From Chrysoporthe austroafricana (Eukaryota; Ascomycota; Sordariomycetes; Diaporthales; Cryphonectriaceae), in NCBI GenBank assembly GCA_001051155.2, contig JYIP02000015.1, forward strand, positions 124,001-188,000: a stretch of DNA of 64,000 bases. Direction: 5' to 3'. Below the pieces are notes generated by a model. The model worked only from the letters and a program-made list of their open reading frames with translations. It was not told the origin of the DNA and ran no database searches. This document shows positions 1-7,783 of the stretch, piece by piece. The position numbers and the translations under genes are program-made. Each line of letters begins with the position of its first letter. The first letter of the stretch is position 1.

Positions 1-2190
1 CTCGCGCTCGATCTTACGCGCCTCGCGGCCTTGGGGCCCGCCCGCGTGCTTGTCGGCGTCAACGCGCTGCTCCTCGACGCAGGTGAGCGTGCGCCAGCCC
101 AGCCTGTGGCCCAGGACGTCCTGGACGGACTCGGAGACCAGCATCCAGACCGGCGTGAGCTTCAGCTCCTTCTCGACGAACTTGACGAAGTCCTTGACGA
201 CCGTGTCGACCTGGGTCGGGTCGCAAAGCGGGTCGCCCGTGATCATCGCGAAGCGGTTCTCCTTGGTGACGTAGCCCACGGCCGCACCGGTCGACTTGTG
301 CCGCCAGATCTGGAAGCGCTCGTCGAGCCACGAGGTGTTGGTCGCGTCGCCGTAGTTGGCGATGAGCTTCTCGAGGGGCCACTCGTCGATGCCCATCGGA
401 CGCGGGTGCCTCGTGTCGCATTCCGGGTGCGGCAGGCGGGCGGACCGCTCGGGCAGCGACTTGGGGTCGCGGTGGAACAGCGTCGCGTAGCGCACGTCGA
501 CGAGCTGCAGCGTCCAGGCGAGGATGCGCTCGAGGCCCAGACCGGCACCGCCGTGCGGCGGGGCGCCGAGATCGAAGGCCTCGAGGTAAGCCTCCATGCC
601 GTCCTCAACCATGCCGGCCTGGCGCATGTTCTCGCGCAGCTCGGTGGCGTTATGGATGCGCTGCCCGCCGGAGCAGACCTCCTGGCCGCGGATGAAGATG
701 TCAAAGGAGTTGGTCCACTTGGGGTCATTGGGATCCTTGTGCGTGTAGAACGGCCGGGCGTTGGCAGGGAACTTGTCGAGGATGTAGTAATCCGTGTTGA
801 ACTTTTCCTTGACAAGCTCGCCGAGGCGGATCTCGTTGGCAGTCGAGAGGTCCTCCTCCTCGACATCGCGACCGTCGTCGCGCAGCATCTGCAGACCTTC
901 CGGGAAGGGGAGGATGAGGGTCTCGTCCAGCCAGACGAGGTCCTCGGAGGGCCACCGCTCGCGCACGACCTGAAGCTCGGGCATAGAATGGAGGGTGCGG
1001 AAGACCTGTTTCAGGAAGGTGTCGACTTCCATCATCACCTCGTGATAGTCCTTCTGGATTGCCATCTCGATGTCAAGCCCGGTGTACTCGGCAAGATGGC
1101 GCTTGGTGTTAGAGTTCTCCGCGCGGAAGACGGGGCCCACCTGAGAGAAACACTGTTAGCTGCCAACGTCCTGCCACAGAACGCGAGAGGGCCGGCCAAT
1201 GCTTACCTCGAACACCCTGCCGAAGTCGGCAGACACGGCCATCTGTTTGGCCAGCTGCGGGCTCTGGGCCAGGAAGGCCCGCCGACCAAAGTAGTTGACC
1301 TTGAACACCTCCGCCCCGCTCTCGGTGGCGGCAGGCTGCAGCTTGGGCGTCTGGATCTCGATGAAGTTGTCCTTCTCCAGCACCTCGCGGAACACCCTCG
1401 TGACCATGCTCCGGATGCGGAACAGGGCCTGGTTCGACGGGTGCCTGAGGTCGAGGATGCGGTTGTTCAGCCGCTGCTGGGTCGTCTCGGGCGGGTCATA
1501 GTTGTCAAAGGTGAGGTCGCGAGCCGGGTTGACGAGGTGGATCGAGTACACCTTGACCTCTAGGTCCTTGTACGTAGCGCTGCGGATCTCCTGCGGGGAC
1601 TTCTGCAGGACGCCGGTGACCTGGACCAGCGACTCGGGCTCGAGGCGCTGCACCCACTTGACGAAGTGCGGCGTGTCGTGCTGCAGCACGCCCTGGAGGG
1701 ACTGGGTCTGGTCGCGGAAGAGGAGGAAGTCCAGGTGCTTGGAGATGTTGCGCTGGTGGTGGATGCGCGCGCGGAAGGTCACCTCGTCGCCCTCCTTCTT
1801 CTCCGTCACCTCCGGGATGGTGAGCAGCTCCTTCGCGTCGGTGGCCCAGCCGTAGCGCGCCTGGGTCTCCTCGTCCTCCTCCATCATGGCGAGCTGGTCC
1901 TCGAGCTTCCGGCGCTCCTCGATCTCCTCGCGCTCCTTCTCCTGCCTGGCCGCCTTCTCCTCCTTGCGCGCCCGCCTCTCCTCGGTGCGGCGAGTGGCCT
2001 TGCCCGAGGCGCCAGCGCTGGTGTTGCTGGAGGCCGAGATGGAGCGGTCGCGGTCATCGCCCCAGCCGAGGCGGCTGAACCTGCTCCGCGAGGCCGAGGG
2101 CGACCGCTGTCCCTCGCGCTTCTCGTCCGTCCCATGGTCGATGCTCGACCTGGGGGAGATGGCGCTGACGAAGTTGTGCAGGGCCGTCAT
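1..2190 (-). CDS. erdS: Ergosteryl-3beta-O-L-aspartate synthase: AspRS-DUF2156 fusion (C-terminus beyond window)
   Basis: Two exons (2190-1207 and 1140-1) joined by a 66-bp intron with clean GTAAGC/CAG borders, giving 708 visible residues. Residues 1-120 are charged and coiled. About 135-240 is the OB-fold anticodon-binding domain. The class II catalytic core follows, with motif 2 (GPVFRAE, then RHLAEYTGLD) just after the splice junction and motif 3 (GLGLER, Arg533) near position 528. A normal cytosolic AspRS would stop soon after the LFHRDPKSLPE segment. Here the frame continues through a linker into a region with GAAVGYV and MITGDPLCDPTQ, typical of the start of DUF2156, the GNAT-like aminoacyl-tRNA transferase domain. 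This architecture is known in fungi as ErdS, which charges tRNA-Asp and transfers Asp to the 3beta-hydroxyl of ergosterol. Only about the first 100 residues of DUF2156 are in the window. Start chosen at the first ATG, 2190. A divergent hydrolase gene upstream supports the call. Confidence 0.86.
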
Positions 2191-4419
2191 GATTGCGGCT
2201 CTCTTCCCTGTCCGATCCGGTCTGTCTATACGGTTCTGGTTCTGCCCACCTGAGGTCGACTTGGATTTCTAATTGTTGGCGACTAAGCAGGACGAGACAG
2301 TTCCCATCTAGCGATGGACGAGGTGTGTAAGTAAGTAGGCGGGGCACGTGGAAGTATACGCAGGAGTGGGTATCAAAGGTAAAGCCAGAGAATCAAGCGG
2401 GTGACATGAGGTAGGGCGGGAAGACGTTACGCAGTGGGGACGGGTGAGGTGGTTTTAAAGACAAAAGCAAGAGGCGCGAGGGTCATGTATGGAGGTCTAT
2501 GGAATATGGTAGGTAGCGAAGGCCCTCTGGGTCCACCGGATGCTTCTCGGGTTGGTCGGGTTGATCTGGTTACGCTGCTGCTGACCTTGACCTTGTTTTC
2601 CCCGTATTCCATAGGACGCCCTCGGATCCTTGTCGCCAGGCGTCAGTGCAATATCAGATCGACCGCGGCAATAGTGCGTGTCCAGCCAGACAAACAGGCT
2701 GTGAGCGACGGCTGGGCTCCTTGCTGGCGACGAGCTACGTAGGCAGGCGGACAGGGCAGGGCAGGGCAGGGCTGGGAGCTCTGGCGATGAGGAATGTTGT
2801 GGCCGCGACCTGCGGCAACAAGTGGATCACTATGACGTTGACGTGGTGTAGTGCTCTGTCTGGGTCGCTCAGGTACGACGCGGCTACAGGTGCTTGTTTC
2901 GGCCCCAGGCCCTGGCCGAGGCGGCTAGTTCCGGTCCGGCGGGGCGCGAGAGAGGTCGAGAATCGTCGATGAGCAAACGATGCGGCGCATAGACGGAGCC
3001 TTTGTTCCTGACGACCCATAGTAAAAGTAGCGTGACGCTGGAGAGGCAGCCCACTCCGACATAGCCCGTACCCCACCTCCCGGCACGAGAGACGTGATTG
3101 AACAGGGACGTCTGTCGGCGCGCGAGCATCTGGACATCTGCACCTCTGGACATGGCGAGAGAGCCAGGCCTGCCAGCGCTTCACGATGCGCGAATAGTGG
3201 CCCCTCCCCGTACCAGCCGTGGTACCCAGAGCAGACGACCCGAGCGTGCCGTGCCACAAGCTCGGCCCTGAATTCTGATTCCCGCCGCGAGCGACTGTCA
3301 CCACCACGGGGCGGTTGGGGGGAGCCGGAGGAAACAAGGAAGCAGGCAAAGCAGAACGTCCGAAACGATGCCAAGGCGCGTGTTCGGCACATGCACGGCA
3401 TCGTCGCAAGTGTGTGGCTAGTGCCGGCAGCCATCGTGACAGCAGGAACGGAGGCAGCGGGAGGGTGCTGTGGCGACGGGCACTCTGGTCCAGCGCTAGC
3501 ATCGGCGCAGGCCAAGGCGAGGCGAGGCGGCGAGCTGCGAGCTGAATGTGAATGGTGAATGTGGGAGAGGTGGCGAGCGAGACTCTGCGGTACCGCCAGA
3601 GTACATGCAGCACGTGGGAGGACCGGCTGGGCTGCTGGCGAGCTGCCGCCGTCTCTCGCGTCTGCTGAGTCATCCGACGATGTCATCCCCAGGTTCCCTT
3701 CGCTTCGTCCCGAGAACCCCACCACGCTTAGTCCCACCCGGCCCCGCGAGGTCCCACGTAGACGTCAACCTGGCCCGTGCCCCCAACGGCGCCCGGAGGA
3801 CTGGGAACCTGTGACGTCACTGCATCCTCCTGCCAACTTGGCCTGCACCTCGCCGAGCAGTAGTGTGTGCTATACTGACTGGGTAGCGGCACTACTACGG
3901 TTAGGTGGTGTGTCAGTGGCTGCTGACGAGCCCTCCACGCGTGTACCTGCGCTGCTGTGGGATCTTGTCTCTTAGATCTTGTCCAACACGCTCAGCAGGG
4001 GATGATCAGGGGACGATCAGGGGAGAGATGGTCAGGTCCAGCTGCCTCTTGCGCTGCCCTGGCCGTGCTCCTTGGGCGCTCAACCTGATGGGCCTCTCTA
4101 ACGATCTCTCTCCCACACAGCCAGTACCCTCGATCCAGATTCCTTATCTCCTCTTCCCCTGGAGACCACTACCATGTGGCTGTTTCTCCGTGAACCTGAC
4201 TATCGTGACCTTACATGACGTACCCCCCCCCCCCAGCAGCAGCACCCACCCAGATTCCCCCCTCATAAACACCGATCTCGACCCTATGTCCTCCAAGGCT
4301 GCCGATCTATAATCACAACCACGACCGCCGCCGCCGCCATAGCCGACCTACAGCCTTAGTCCCTCCTGAGCTCGTCAGCGGCCCACAGAAAACCGACACA
4401 TTTCCGCACCTCGGGCACC
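2191..4419. promoter_or_regulatory. Long divergent intergenic region between erdS and the hydrolase gene
   Basis: These 2.2 kb separate the start codons of two head-to-head genes and must hold both promoters and 5' leaders. I found no protein family in any frame; the longer open frames here look like GC-rich chance reading. Visible landmarks are an AGGGC tandem run near 2752-2772, a perfect 10-bp palindrome at 3811-3820 containing the ATF/CREB core, a C13 homopolymer near 4226, and pyrimidine-rich sequence from about 4120 to 4419, which looks like a fungal core promoter and leader for the plus-strand gene. Confidence 0.6.
3811..3820. promoter_or_regulatory. CRE-like bZIP palindrome
   Basis: The sequence GTGACGTCAC is a perfect palindrome around TGACGTCA, the classic ATF/CREB binding site used by fungal stress bZIP factors such as Atf1/AtfA. 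It lies about 600 bp upstream of the hydrolase ATG and 1.6 kb from the erdS ATG. A second ACGTC half-site lies near 3760. Function is inferred from the motif alone. Confidence 0.45.
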
Positions 4420-6114
4420 ATGTCAGAGACCGCCGTCGAGCCCCTGGGCCAGCAACCCGACCCGCTCGAGGAGGCCCGCGACGCCATCAACGAGCCCTCC
4501 ACCGACGTCTACCACAACCCGCGAGAGTCCTCCTCCCGCATGGGCCTCGAGGCCCGCGCGTACGCCTACAGGGCGGGGGCCTCCCTGGCCTTCGGCATGG
4601 GCAATATGGTGGCCCCCGCCGTCCCCTCGCCGCAGAAGACCATCTACCTCGACTCAACCTTCTCGAAAAAATACAGCGGGAGGGACAAGATACGCGCATA
4701 CGTCTGGACGCCCGACAGGCCGCGGGTGGGCTCGCGAAAGAGCAGCAGGGAGAGCGTGCGGAGCCTGAAGAAGGAGGAGAGGAGGGAGAGGAAGGAGGAG
4801 AAGAAGCGGATGAAGAGGGAGAAGAAGGAGGAGGGAAAGGGGGAGAAGACCGGTGAGGATACCGACGGCCTGACGACGCCCTCGCTGTCCCGTGTTTCCT
4901 CCAAGGCATCCATCCCAGACGACGAGACCCCCGTCGGTGACGCCGTCGCCGGGAAGAAGAGGCCGTCCACGCTGTCCCGCCTGTCCTCGCGGCTCTCGAA
5001 CAAGTCCTCAAGGTCCCTCAAGTCGACGCTGTCCAGGTCCAAGTCCTCCCTCTCCCTGGGCTCTACGCCCTCCGCATCTCAGACCGACATCAACCCCATG
5101 GACAAGATCCCCTCTCTCCTTACGCCGCAGGCCGACCCGCGGTCGCGCCGGCCCGCCGTGATCAACTTCCACGGCGGCGGCTTCGTGCTCGGCCAGGGCA
5201 CGGACGACGGGCGGTGGGCAATGGCCGTCATGCAGGCGCTGGGCGCCGTCGTCTTCTCCGTCGAGTACAGGCTCGCGCCGAGCTACCCGTTCCCGACCCC
5301 CGTGGAGGACTGCGCGGACGCCGTGCTGCAGATCTGGAGGCGCGCCGACGAGTTCTGGATCGACCGGGACAAGATCATCCTCTCCGGATTCTCGGCGGGC
5401 GGCACGCTGGCGCTGGCGAGCTGGGTGCTGCTCGCGGACTACAAGCGGTGGGGCTACGACCTCAAGCCGGACCCGAACTTCGCCGGGGACACAGCCAGGC
5501 CCTCCGCGGGCGGGCAGGACGGGCAGGACGGGGCGCGGGACCCCGACGTCCCCCACGCCGCCGGGCTGATGCTCTTCTACCCGCTCCTCGACTGGACGCA
5601 GTCCCGCCCGCGCAAGCGCCTCACCTGCTCCCGGCCCGAGCTCACCCTCGGCCGCTCCCTGACGGACCTCTTCGACGCGTCCTACCTCTACCCCTACGAC
5701 GAGGTCAAGTCCCAGCTCGACAACCCCCTCCTCTCCCCGGGCCTCATGCCCGACGACCTGCTGGACAGGCTGCCGCCCGTGCAGCTGTGCCTGTGCGAGT
5801 ACGACATGCTGCTCGCCGAGGGGCGGCGGTTCCACGAGCGTCTGCAGGCAAGGAAGAAGCAGGCGGGCGCGCGGGAGGTCGAGGGCGCCAAGCACGCGTG
5901 GGACAAGCCCAGCGGGCTGCTGTACAGCCCGCCCGAGAGCATGGGCACGGAGTACGGTGAGGCGGTGCGCGTGATGGCGGGGTGGATCGGGCGCGAGGAG
6001 GGCAACGGGAGCGGGGAGGACCTCGCGCAGAGGGTGAGGCAGAGGGAGGAGAACGGAAAGAACCGGCACCCGGACGCTCTAGTTGTCCCTGTAGATGGAG
6101 GGGTGCATCCGTGA
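4420..6114 (+). CDS. erdH: Alpha/beta hydrolase (HSL family), probable ergosteryl-aspartate hydrolase
   Basis: A single-exon gene of 564 residues starting at CACCATG. The catalytic set of the hormone-sensitive lipase family is complete: oxyanion motif HGGGF (251-255), nucleophile elbow GFSAGG with Ser325, Asp462 in CEYDMLL, and His492 in EGAKHAW. Between the N-terminal cap (up to about 105) and the core lies an insert: a Lys/Glu/Arg-rich run at about 116-146 and a Ser-rich stretch at about 155-225, probably disordered and open to phosphorylation. No signal peptide is seen, so it is probably intracellular. The gene is head-to-head with the AspRS-DUF2156 fusion. In fungi with ErdS, a hydrolase named ErdH removes Asp from the ergosteryl ester, and adjacency suggests this is that enzyme. 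The hydrolase class is secure; the exact substrate is inference. The alternative is a general esterase. Confidence 0.75.
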   Translation: MSETAVEPLGQQPDPLEEARDAINEPSTDVYHNPRESSSRMGLEARAYAYRAGASLAFGMGNMVAPAVPSPQKTIYLDSTFSKKYSGRDKIRAYVWTPDRPRVGSRKSSRESVRSLKKEERRERKEEKKRMKREKKEEGKGEKTGEDTDGLTTPSLSRVSSKASIPDDETPVGDAVAGKKRPSTLSRLSSRLSNKSSRSLKSTLSRSKSSLSLGSTPSASQTDINPMDKIPSLLTPQADPRSRRPAVINFHGGGFVLGQGTDDGRWAMAVMQALGAVVFSVEYRLAPSYPFPTPVEDCADAVLQIWRRADEFWIDRDKIILSGFSAGGTLALASWVLLADYKRWGYDLKPDPNFAGDTARPSAGGQDGQDGARDPDVPHAAGLMLFYPLLDWTQSRPRKRLTCSRPELTLGRSLTDLFDASYLYPYDEVKSQLDNPLLSPGLMPDDLLDRLPPVQLCLCEYDMLLAEGRRFHERLQARKKQAGAREVEGAKHAWDKPSGLLYSPPESMGTEYGEAVRVMAGWIGREEGNGSGEDLAQRVRQREENGKNRHPDALVVPVDGGVHP

Positions 6115-6950: not shown

Positions 6951-7783
6951 ATGCTCCGCCGAACCGCCCTCCTCGCCCTCGCGGCGGCGGGCGTGATCCC
7001 CCCGTCCCTCGCCCAGATCTCAGACGACTTCGAGGGCGGCTGGAACCAGACCGAGTGGCCCATCTACGCGCCCGACTGCAACCAGGGCGGCAGCGTGACG
7101 CTCGACAGCACCACGGCGCACAGCGGCACGAACTCGATCAGGGTGGACGGCGCGGGCGGGTATTGCGGCCACATCTTCTTCGGGACGACGCAGGTGCCCA
7201 CCGGCGATGTTTACGTGCGGACCTGGCTGTGAGTCTACCTCCCTTCTGCCTCCCTCCTCGCCCTACTCGCGCTCGCCCCGTGGCTACGGTGGGGAAACGC
7301 GACACATAGCTGAACCCCCCTTCCAGAAAGGCGACCACCGCCCTCGGGCCCGACCACGTCTCCTTCATCACGCACCCGGACGCCGCCCAGGGGACTGGCA
7401 AGCACCTGCGCATCGGCGGGCAGTCTTCGATACTGATGTACAACCGCGAGTCCGACGACGCGACGCTGCCGGACCTGAGCCCGCAGGGCATCGCGACGTC
7501 CGAGGCCCTGCCCGCGGGGAGCTGGGAGTGCTTTGAGTACCACCTGGGCACGGACGGGACCATCGAGACGTGGCTGAACGGGGCCGCGATTGCGGGCCTC
7601 ACCGTGGGGCCGGGCATCACGAACGCGAACGCCCAGGGGTGGTCGAGGGAGACGTACGTCCCGGAGATCACGGGGGTGTATTTCGGGTGGGAGAGCTACG
7701 GGGGCGCCACGAACACGTTCTGGTATGACGATGTCGCTGTCGCGTCGACGAGGGTGGGCTGCAACGCTACTGCTGCGAGGTGA
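6951..7783 (+). CDS. cip1: Secreted Cip1-like protein without a cellulose-binding module
   Basis: Two exons (6951-7228, 7327-7783) with a 98-bp intron, 244 residues. Residues 1-22 form a signal peptide ending in SLA. The mature protein starts with ISDDFEGGW and contains APDCNQGG, YCGHIFFGTTQVP, HLRIGGQS, YNRESDDATLPDLSP and CFEYHLGTDGTIETWLNG. These segments match the catalytic-like core of Cip1, a protein co-secreted with cellulases by Trichoderma and related by fold to polysaccharide lyases. Cip1 of Trichoderma ends in a Ser/Thr-rich linker and a family 1 cellulose-binding module; this protein stops at VGCNATAAR, just after the core. It should act outside the cell on plant cell walls, but the true substrate of the family is not settled. 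Splicing keeps the frame at LKATTALG. Confidence 0.88.

Follow-up and report, generated by a model that had tools for sequence, protein, structure and literature searches.

The closest described counterpart of the locus reported here is the Aspergillus fumigatus gene AFUA_1G02570, whose product, ErdS, was reportedly described by Yakobov et al. in 2020 as an ergosteryl-3β-O-L-aspartate synthase. We take ErdH to be the name of the hydrolase acting on the product, ergosteryl-aspartate (Erg-Asp), and we assume that the ErdS and hydrolase genes are neighbors in A. fumigatus, where ErdH is possibly AFUA_1G02580. No mention of AFUA_1G02580 was found in the literature, and the papers from 2020 on that contain the word ErdH include, judged by title, none on the enzyme. 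In the available portions of the sources, ErdS is stated to join AspRS (aspartyl-tRNA synthetase) and DUF2156 activities to yield Erg-Asp (PMC9437257), and fungi are stated to possess enzymes that conjugate ergosterol with amino acids and enzymes that deconjugate it, with Saccharomyces cerevisiae being without the gene (PMC8172173). The 2020 ErdS paper is cited in PMC12492740, again in the portion available. A more distant parallel, taken from the excerpt of PMC9437257, is the lysine/phosphatidylglycerol enzyme, in which a synthetase and a lipid aminoacyl transferase are likewise combined; it works with lysine and phosphatidylglycerol, whereas the protein described here would work with aspartate and, by homology, a sterol.

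We analyzed a 64,000-nucleotide window (C7:124001-188000; the assembly totals 48.15 Mb in 22 contigs) together with its left flank. Near its left edge lies what is most probably a fungal ErdS-ErdH pair (probability of roughly 0.82), consisting of an ergosteryl-3β-O-L-aspartate synthase gene and a divergent hydrolase gene whose product most likely cleaves the ester. The AspRS half of ErdS would charge tRNA-Asp with aspartate, the C-terminal DUF2156-type transferase half would transfer this aspartate off the tRNA onto the 3β-OH of ergosterol, and the divergent serine hydrolase, a candidate ErdH, would most likely cleave the Erg-Asp ester again. We infer ergosterol as the acceptor, Erg-Asp as the hydrolase substrate, and a filamentous ascomycete as the host, and the same applies to any joint regulation of the two genes. 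The locus is a further example of a system already known from other fungi and brings no new chemistry; it holds little novelty, as enzymes coupling amino acids to ergosterol and enzymes removing them have been published (PMC8172173, as far as the available text goes). Its value lies in correcting a likely misannotation, in which a lipid-modifying enzyme would be called AspRS, and in adding one locus where the making and probable unmaking of Erg-Asp adjoin.

The ErdS gene lies on the minus strand and starts with an ATG at window position 2190. In the predicted splice reading, it has two exons and encodes 898 aa. Exon 1 (1207..2190, minus strand), with Pfam matches to tRNA_anti-codon and tRNA-synt_2, encodes a charged, Ser-containing N-terminal extension, an OB-fold anticodon-binding domain, and the start of the AspRS core. 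It is followed by a predicted 66-bp GT-AG intron (1141..1206, minus strand), whose donor GTAAGC and acceptor CAG were read directly from the DNA; at the junction, the spliced protein (...GRVFEVGPVFRAEN...) aligns to PDB 9w9f with no gap. Exon 2 (1..1140 inside the window, minus strand) encodes the remainder of the AspRS core and then enters the transferase domain, continuing for 573 further bases to the left of the window, where the stop codon ends at C7:123428.

Pfam searches of the predicted ErdS protein returned an OB-fold anticodon-binding domain, a class II core, and LPG_synthase_C (PF09924), in that order. The last of these is, we assume, the former DUF2156. Its match is above the cut-off, spans profile positions 22-298 of 298, and directly follows the AspRS core in one open frame, so that the protein carries an in-frame C-terminal domain of this type. 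The match takes up 276 residues of the exon-2 frame (281-556) and is split by the window edge, with 105 residues inside (window 315 to 1) and 171 in the left flank. The class II core retains FRAEN (333) and GLGLER (528), which lie in AspRS motifs 2 and 3, respectively. A first-pass annotation confined to the window had read an AspRS core running into the start of a DUF2156 domain, marked by the strings GAAVGYV and MITGDP. Both strings are present in the ErdS frame, and the left flank carries that reading through: PF09924 is matched to the end of the profile, and no stop soon after position 1 cuts the domain short. Single-sequence structure prediction of the part of ErdS within the window (mean pLDDT 37.0) was too poor for use.

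The start codon of the hydrolase gene, on the plus strand, lies 2,229 bp from that of ErdS, and the two are divergent. This candidate ErdH gene (4420..6114, plus strand) is a single uninterrupted frame of 564 aa, in which Pfam Abhydrolase_3 matches residues 247-494 (E 2.4e-40). In hydrolases of the HSL type, HGGG is the oxyanion motif, and Ser, Asp, and His are catalytic. An intact set is found here in the expected order, with HGGGF at 251, GFSAG at 323 (Ser325), EYD at 460 (Asp462), and KHAWD at 491 (His492). The description of the divergent neighbor as an HSL-type hydrolase with complete catalytic equipment is thus borne out by both the motifs and the Abhydrolase_3 match. PDB comparisons (best 60 of 111 matches) returned esterases and lipases of the HSL-type fold, with the best stretch at residues 242-340, and none of the nine NCBIfam cut-offs listed was reached. 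Since the matches are limited to broad HSL-type families in Pfam, NCBIfam, and the PDB, they neither support nor exclude ErdH itself. The hydrolase shares its catalytic domain, with HGGG and GxSxG, with HSL-type esterases of solved structure (e.g., PDB 2yh2) and differs from them by a long N-terminal part. Within it, a basic, Ser-rich stretch of ~136 residues (about residues 100-235; window 4717-5124, plus strand) precedes the catalytic domain and may serve in membrane targeting or regulation. Structure prediction from the single hydrolase sequence was likewise too poor for use (mean pLDDT 39.0), and the five pattern matches to it in viral_contigs, a collection that says little on fungi, yielded no confirmed relative.

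In a rival reading, which we consider unlikely, only the minus-strand gene belongs to the system, as a genuine ErdS, while its neighbor encodes an HSL-type esterase with no relation to it, placed there by accident. The breadth of the family matches is compatible with such an esterase, as is the abundance of the domain, with at least 51 Abhydrolase_3 match rows in the genome that merge to at least 43 places when rows less than 2 kb apart are joined (both counts being lower bounds). Against it stands the location of the gene. About 0.56% of the genome falls within 2,968 bp, the distance at the present locus, of another detected Abhydrolase_3 stretch, a rough, post hoc estimate for one case built on the lower-bound counts. 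Chance adjacency of ErdS and the hydrolase is unlikely because such a small share of the genome (~0.6%) lies that near another detected stretch. The other two AspRS-type genes of this genome, on C20 and C19, have no Abhydrolase_3 stretch within 1.7 Mb on their own contigs; the nearest are 1.79 Mb from the C20 AspRS gene and 2.28 Mb from the C19 AspRS-like gene. The best paralogue of the hydrolase in the genome, among 18 other rows, is 44% identical over 103 aa, which also argues against an unrelated esterase. Finally, a deconjugating enzyme is reported for fungi in the available text of PMC8172173, and the hydrolase described here resembles it, by description, as an enzyme expected to work with ErdS. 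The plus-strand gene is a plausible candidate for ErdH, and the overall reading of the first-pass annotation survives in graded form: the ErdS identity is well supported by domain content, homology, and the sole PF09924 match in the genome, the hydrolase class holds as well, and ErdH is a putative assignment.

The ErdS-ErdH pair is separated by an intergenic spacer of 2,229 bp from start codon to start codon (2191..4419; 61% G+C), a possible shared promoter region. Five motifs were counted in this spacer and compared with 500 first-order Markov sequences. The counts, seen versus mean, were 0 vs 0.05 for an SRE-like motif, 0 vs 0.33 for a relaxed SRE, 0 vs 2.5 for CCAAT, 7 vs 20.8 for CGG-spaced-CCG, and 5 vs 5.7 for AGGCA. 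None of the five is enriched in the spacer, and both SRE forms are expected too rarely for their absence to mean much. The 500 bases ahead of each start contain six upstream ATGs for the hydrolase and four for ErdS. The proposal that synthesis and removal sit side by side across one intergenic region stands with the divergent 2,229-bp spacer, and its extension to co-control is suggested by the layout alone, the motifs not being enriched. A bolder version, in which one bidirectional promoter drives Erg-Asp synthesis and removal as a turnover switch and the basic Ser-rich stretch holds the hydrolase at a membrane, we regard as doubtful. If the adjacency is conserved and the genes are co-regulated, the pair would offer an easy way to learn when fungi draw on aminoacylated sterols. 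To the left of the ErdS gene (C7:118001-123009) are genes encoding a protein with an Argonaute N-terminal domain, a DUF218 protein, and a GH43 beta-xylosidase, and the right neighbor of the hydrolase gene is a Cip1-like protein (window 6951-7783). None of these neighbors points to sterol metabolism.

Comparison with solved structures bears on what the ErdS protein does. The top three PDB chains (9w9f, 9w9e, and 9w9g) are fusions with the same domain order and similar length, and the shared architecture extends nearly end to end. Alignment to 9w9f gives 436/875 identical residues (49.8%) spanning residues 9-898, so that the two proteins differ at about half of their residues. Identity is 55.0% (237/431) in the AspRS part (residues 126-557), 50.2% (153/305) over residues 585-898, and 30.4% (34/112) in the N-terminal extension. 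The next-best chains (4j15, 6iy6, and 1eov) are AspRS without the extra domain, and their matches are confined to ErdS residues 120-557 or less. The likeness to an AspRS-DUF2156-type fusion thus covers nearly the full length, although 9w9e, 9w9f, and 9w9g are titled merely "Aspartate--tRNA ligase, cytoplasmic", a title that gives neither ErdS activity nor organism; no mention of codes 9W9E/F/G was found in the literature from 2024 on. A. fumigatus ErdS likewise has AspRS and DUF2156 in a single protein (available part of PMC9437257), and we see no functional difference from it, the two being likened by description and not by sequence.

A reading in which the DUF2156 half acts on another acceptor, such as a glycerolipid or a different sterol, or with another amino acid appears improbable. 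The bacterial enzymes of this type target glycerolipids (PMC9437257) and fungal ErgS uses Gly-tRNA (PMC10449517), each in the portion of the source available, but the AspRS motifs of the present protein are intact and each of its halves is at least 50% identical to the solved fusion 9w9f. Aspartylation of ergosterol by ErdS remains the favored activity.

To place ErdS among the AspRS-type genes of the genome, we searched with exon 2 and obtained ten rows. The strongest beyond ErdS is C20:61451-62122 (E 1.5e-50, 45% over query residues 23-234), followed by C19:4759334-4759744 (E 3.9e-21, 39%). Together with an upstream exon, the C20 gene covers ErdS residues 106-557, where its frame stops without a DUF2156-type domain, so the ErdS fusion is not the sole AspRS in the genome. 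We infer the C20 gene to be the housekeeping AspRS, from which the ErdS gene is then distinct. It is hardly credible that the minus-strand gene is itself a plain housekeeping AspRS whose C-terminal extension is inert, a reading encouraged by generic annotation such as that of AFUA_1G02570 as a cytoplasmic aspartyl-tRNA synthetase in 2015 (PMC4551469), since the separate C20 gene has no extension, the extension of ErdS fits the Pfam profile to its end and is 50.2% identical to 9w9f, and AFUA_1G02570 has since been renamed erdS (PMC11619415; both sources in their available portions). The 2015 entry matches the first-pass expectation that generic annotation would call such a gene simply AspRS. 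The genome contains no second PF09924 match at E up to 10 among the candidates scored from a loose first pass. Because the match is single, the genome may lack a free-standing ErgS (ergosteryl-glycine synthase). Searches for relatives of the DUF2156 part gave 26 pattern matches in genome_contigs and five in viral_contigs, none confirmed, and no match in plasmids, collections of bacterial, archaeal, viral, or plasmid DNA that say little on fungi. With the DUF2156-type domain running through the profile end, the similarity to 9w9f, the separate AspRS gene, and the sole PF09924 match, the original proposal of ErdS is strongly supported, and we consider the predicted minus-strand protein a well-supported ErdS.

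The C19 hit belongs to a third, divergent AspRS-like gene (C19:4759328-4760931, minus strand) that shares 30.6% and 36.9% identity with ErdS across two tblastn pieces, reads GLGVNR in its motif 3 region, and has no PF09924 match. On one side it adjoins 9 kb or more of DNA with a G+C content of only 20-36%, and on its opposite side genes for a 2OG-Fe(II) oxygenase and a Haem_oxygenas_2 protein start less than 4 kb away. This locus could be a small natural-product cluster employing a synthetase-like enzyme.
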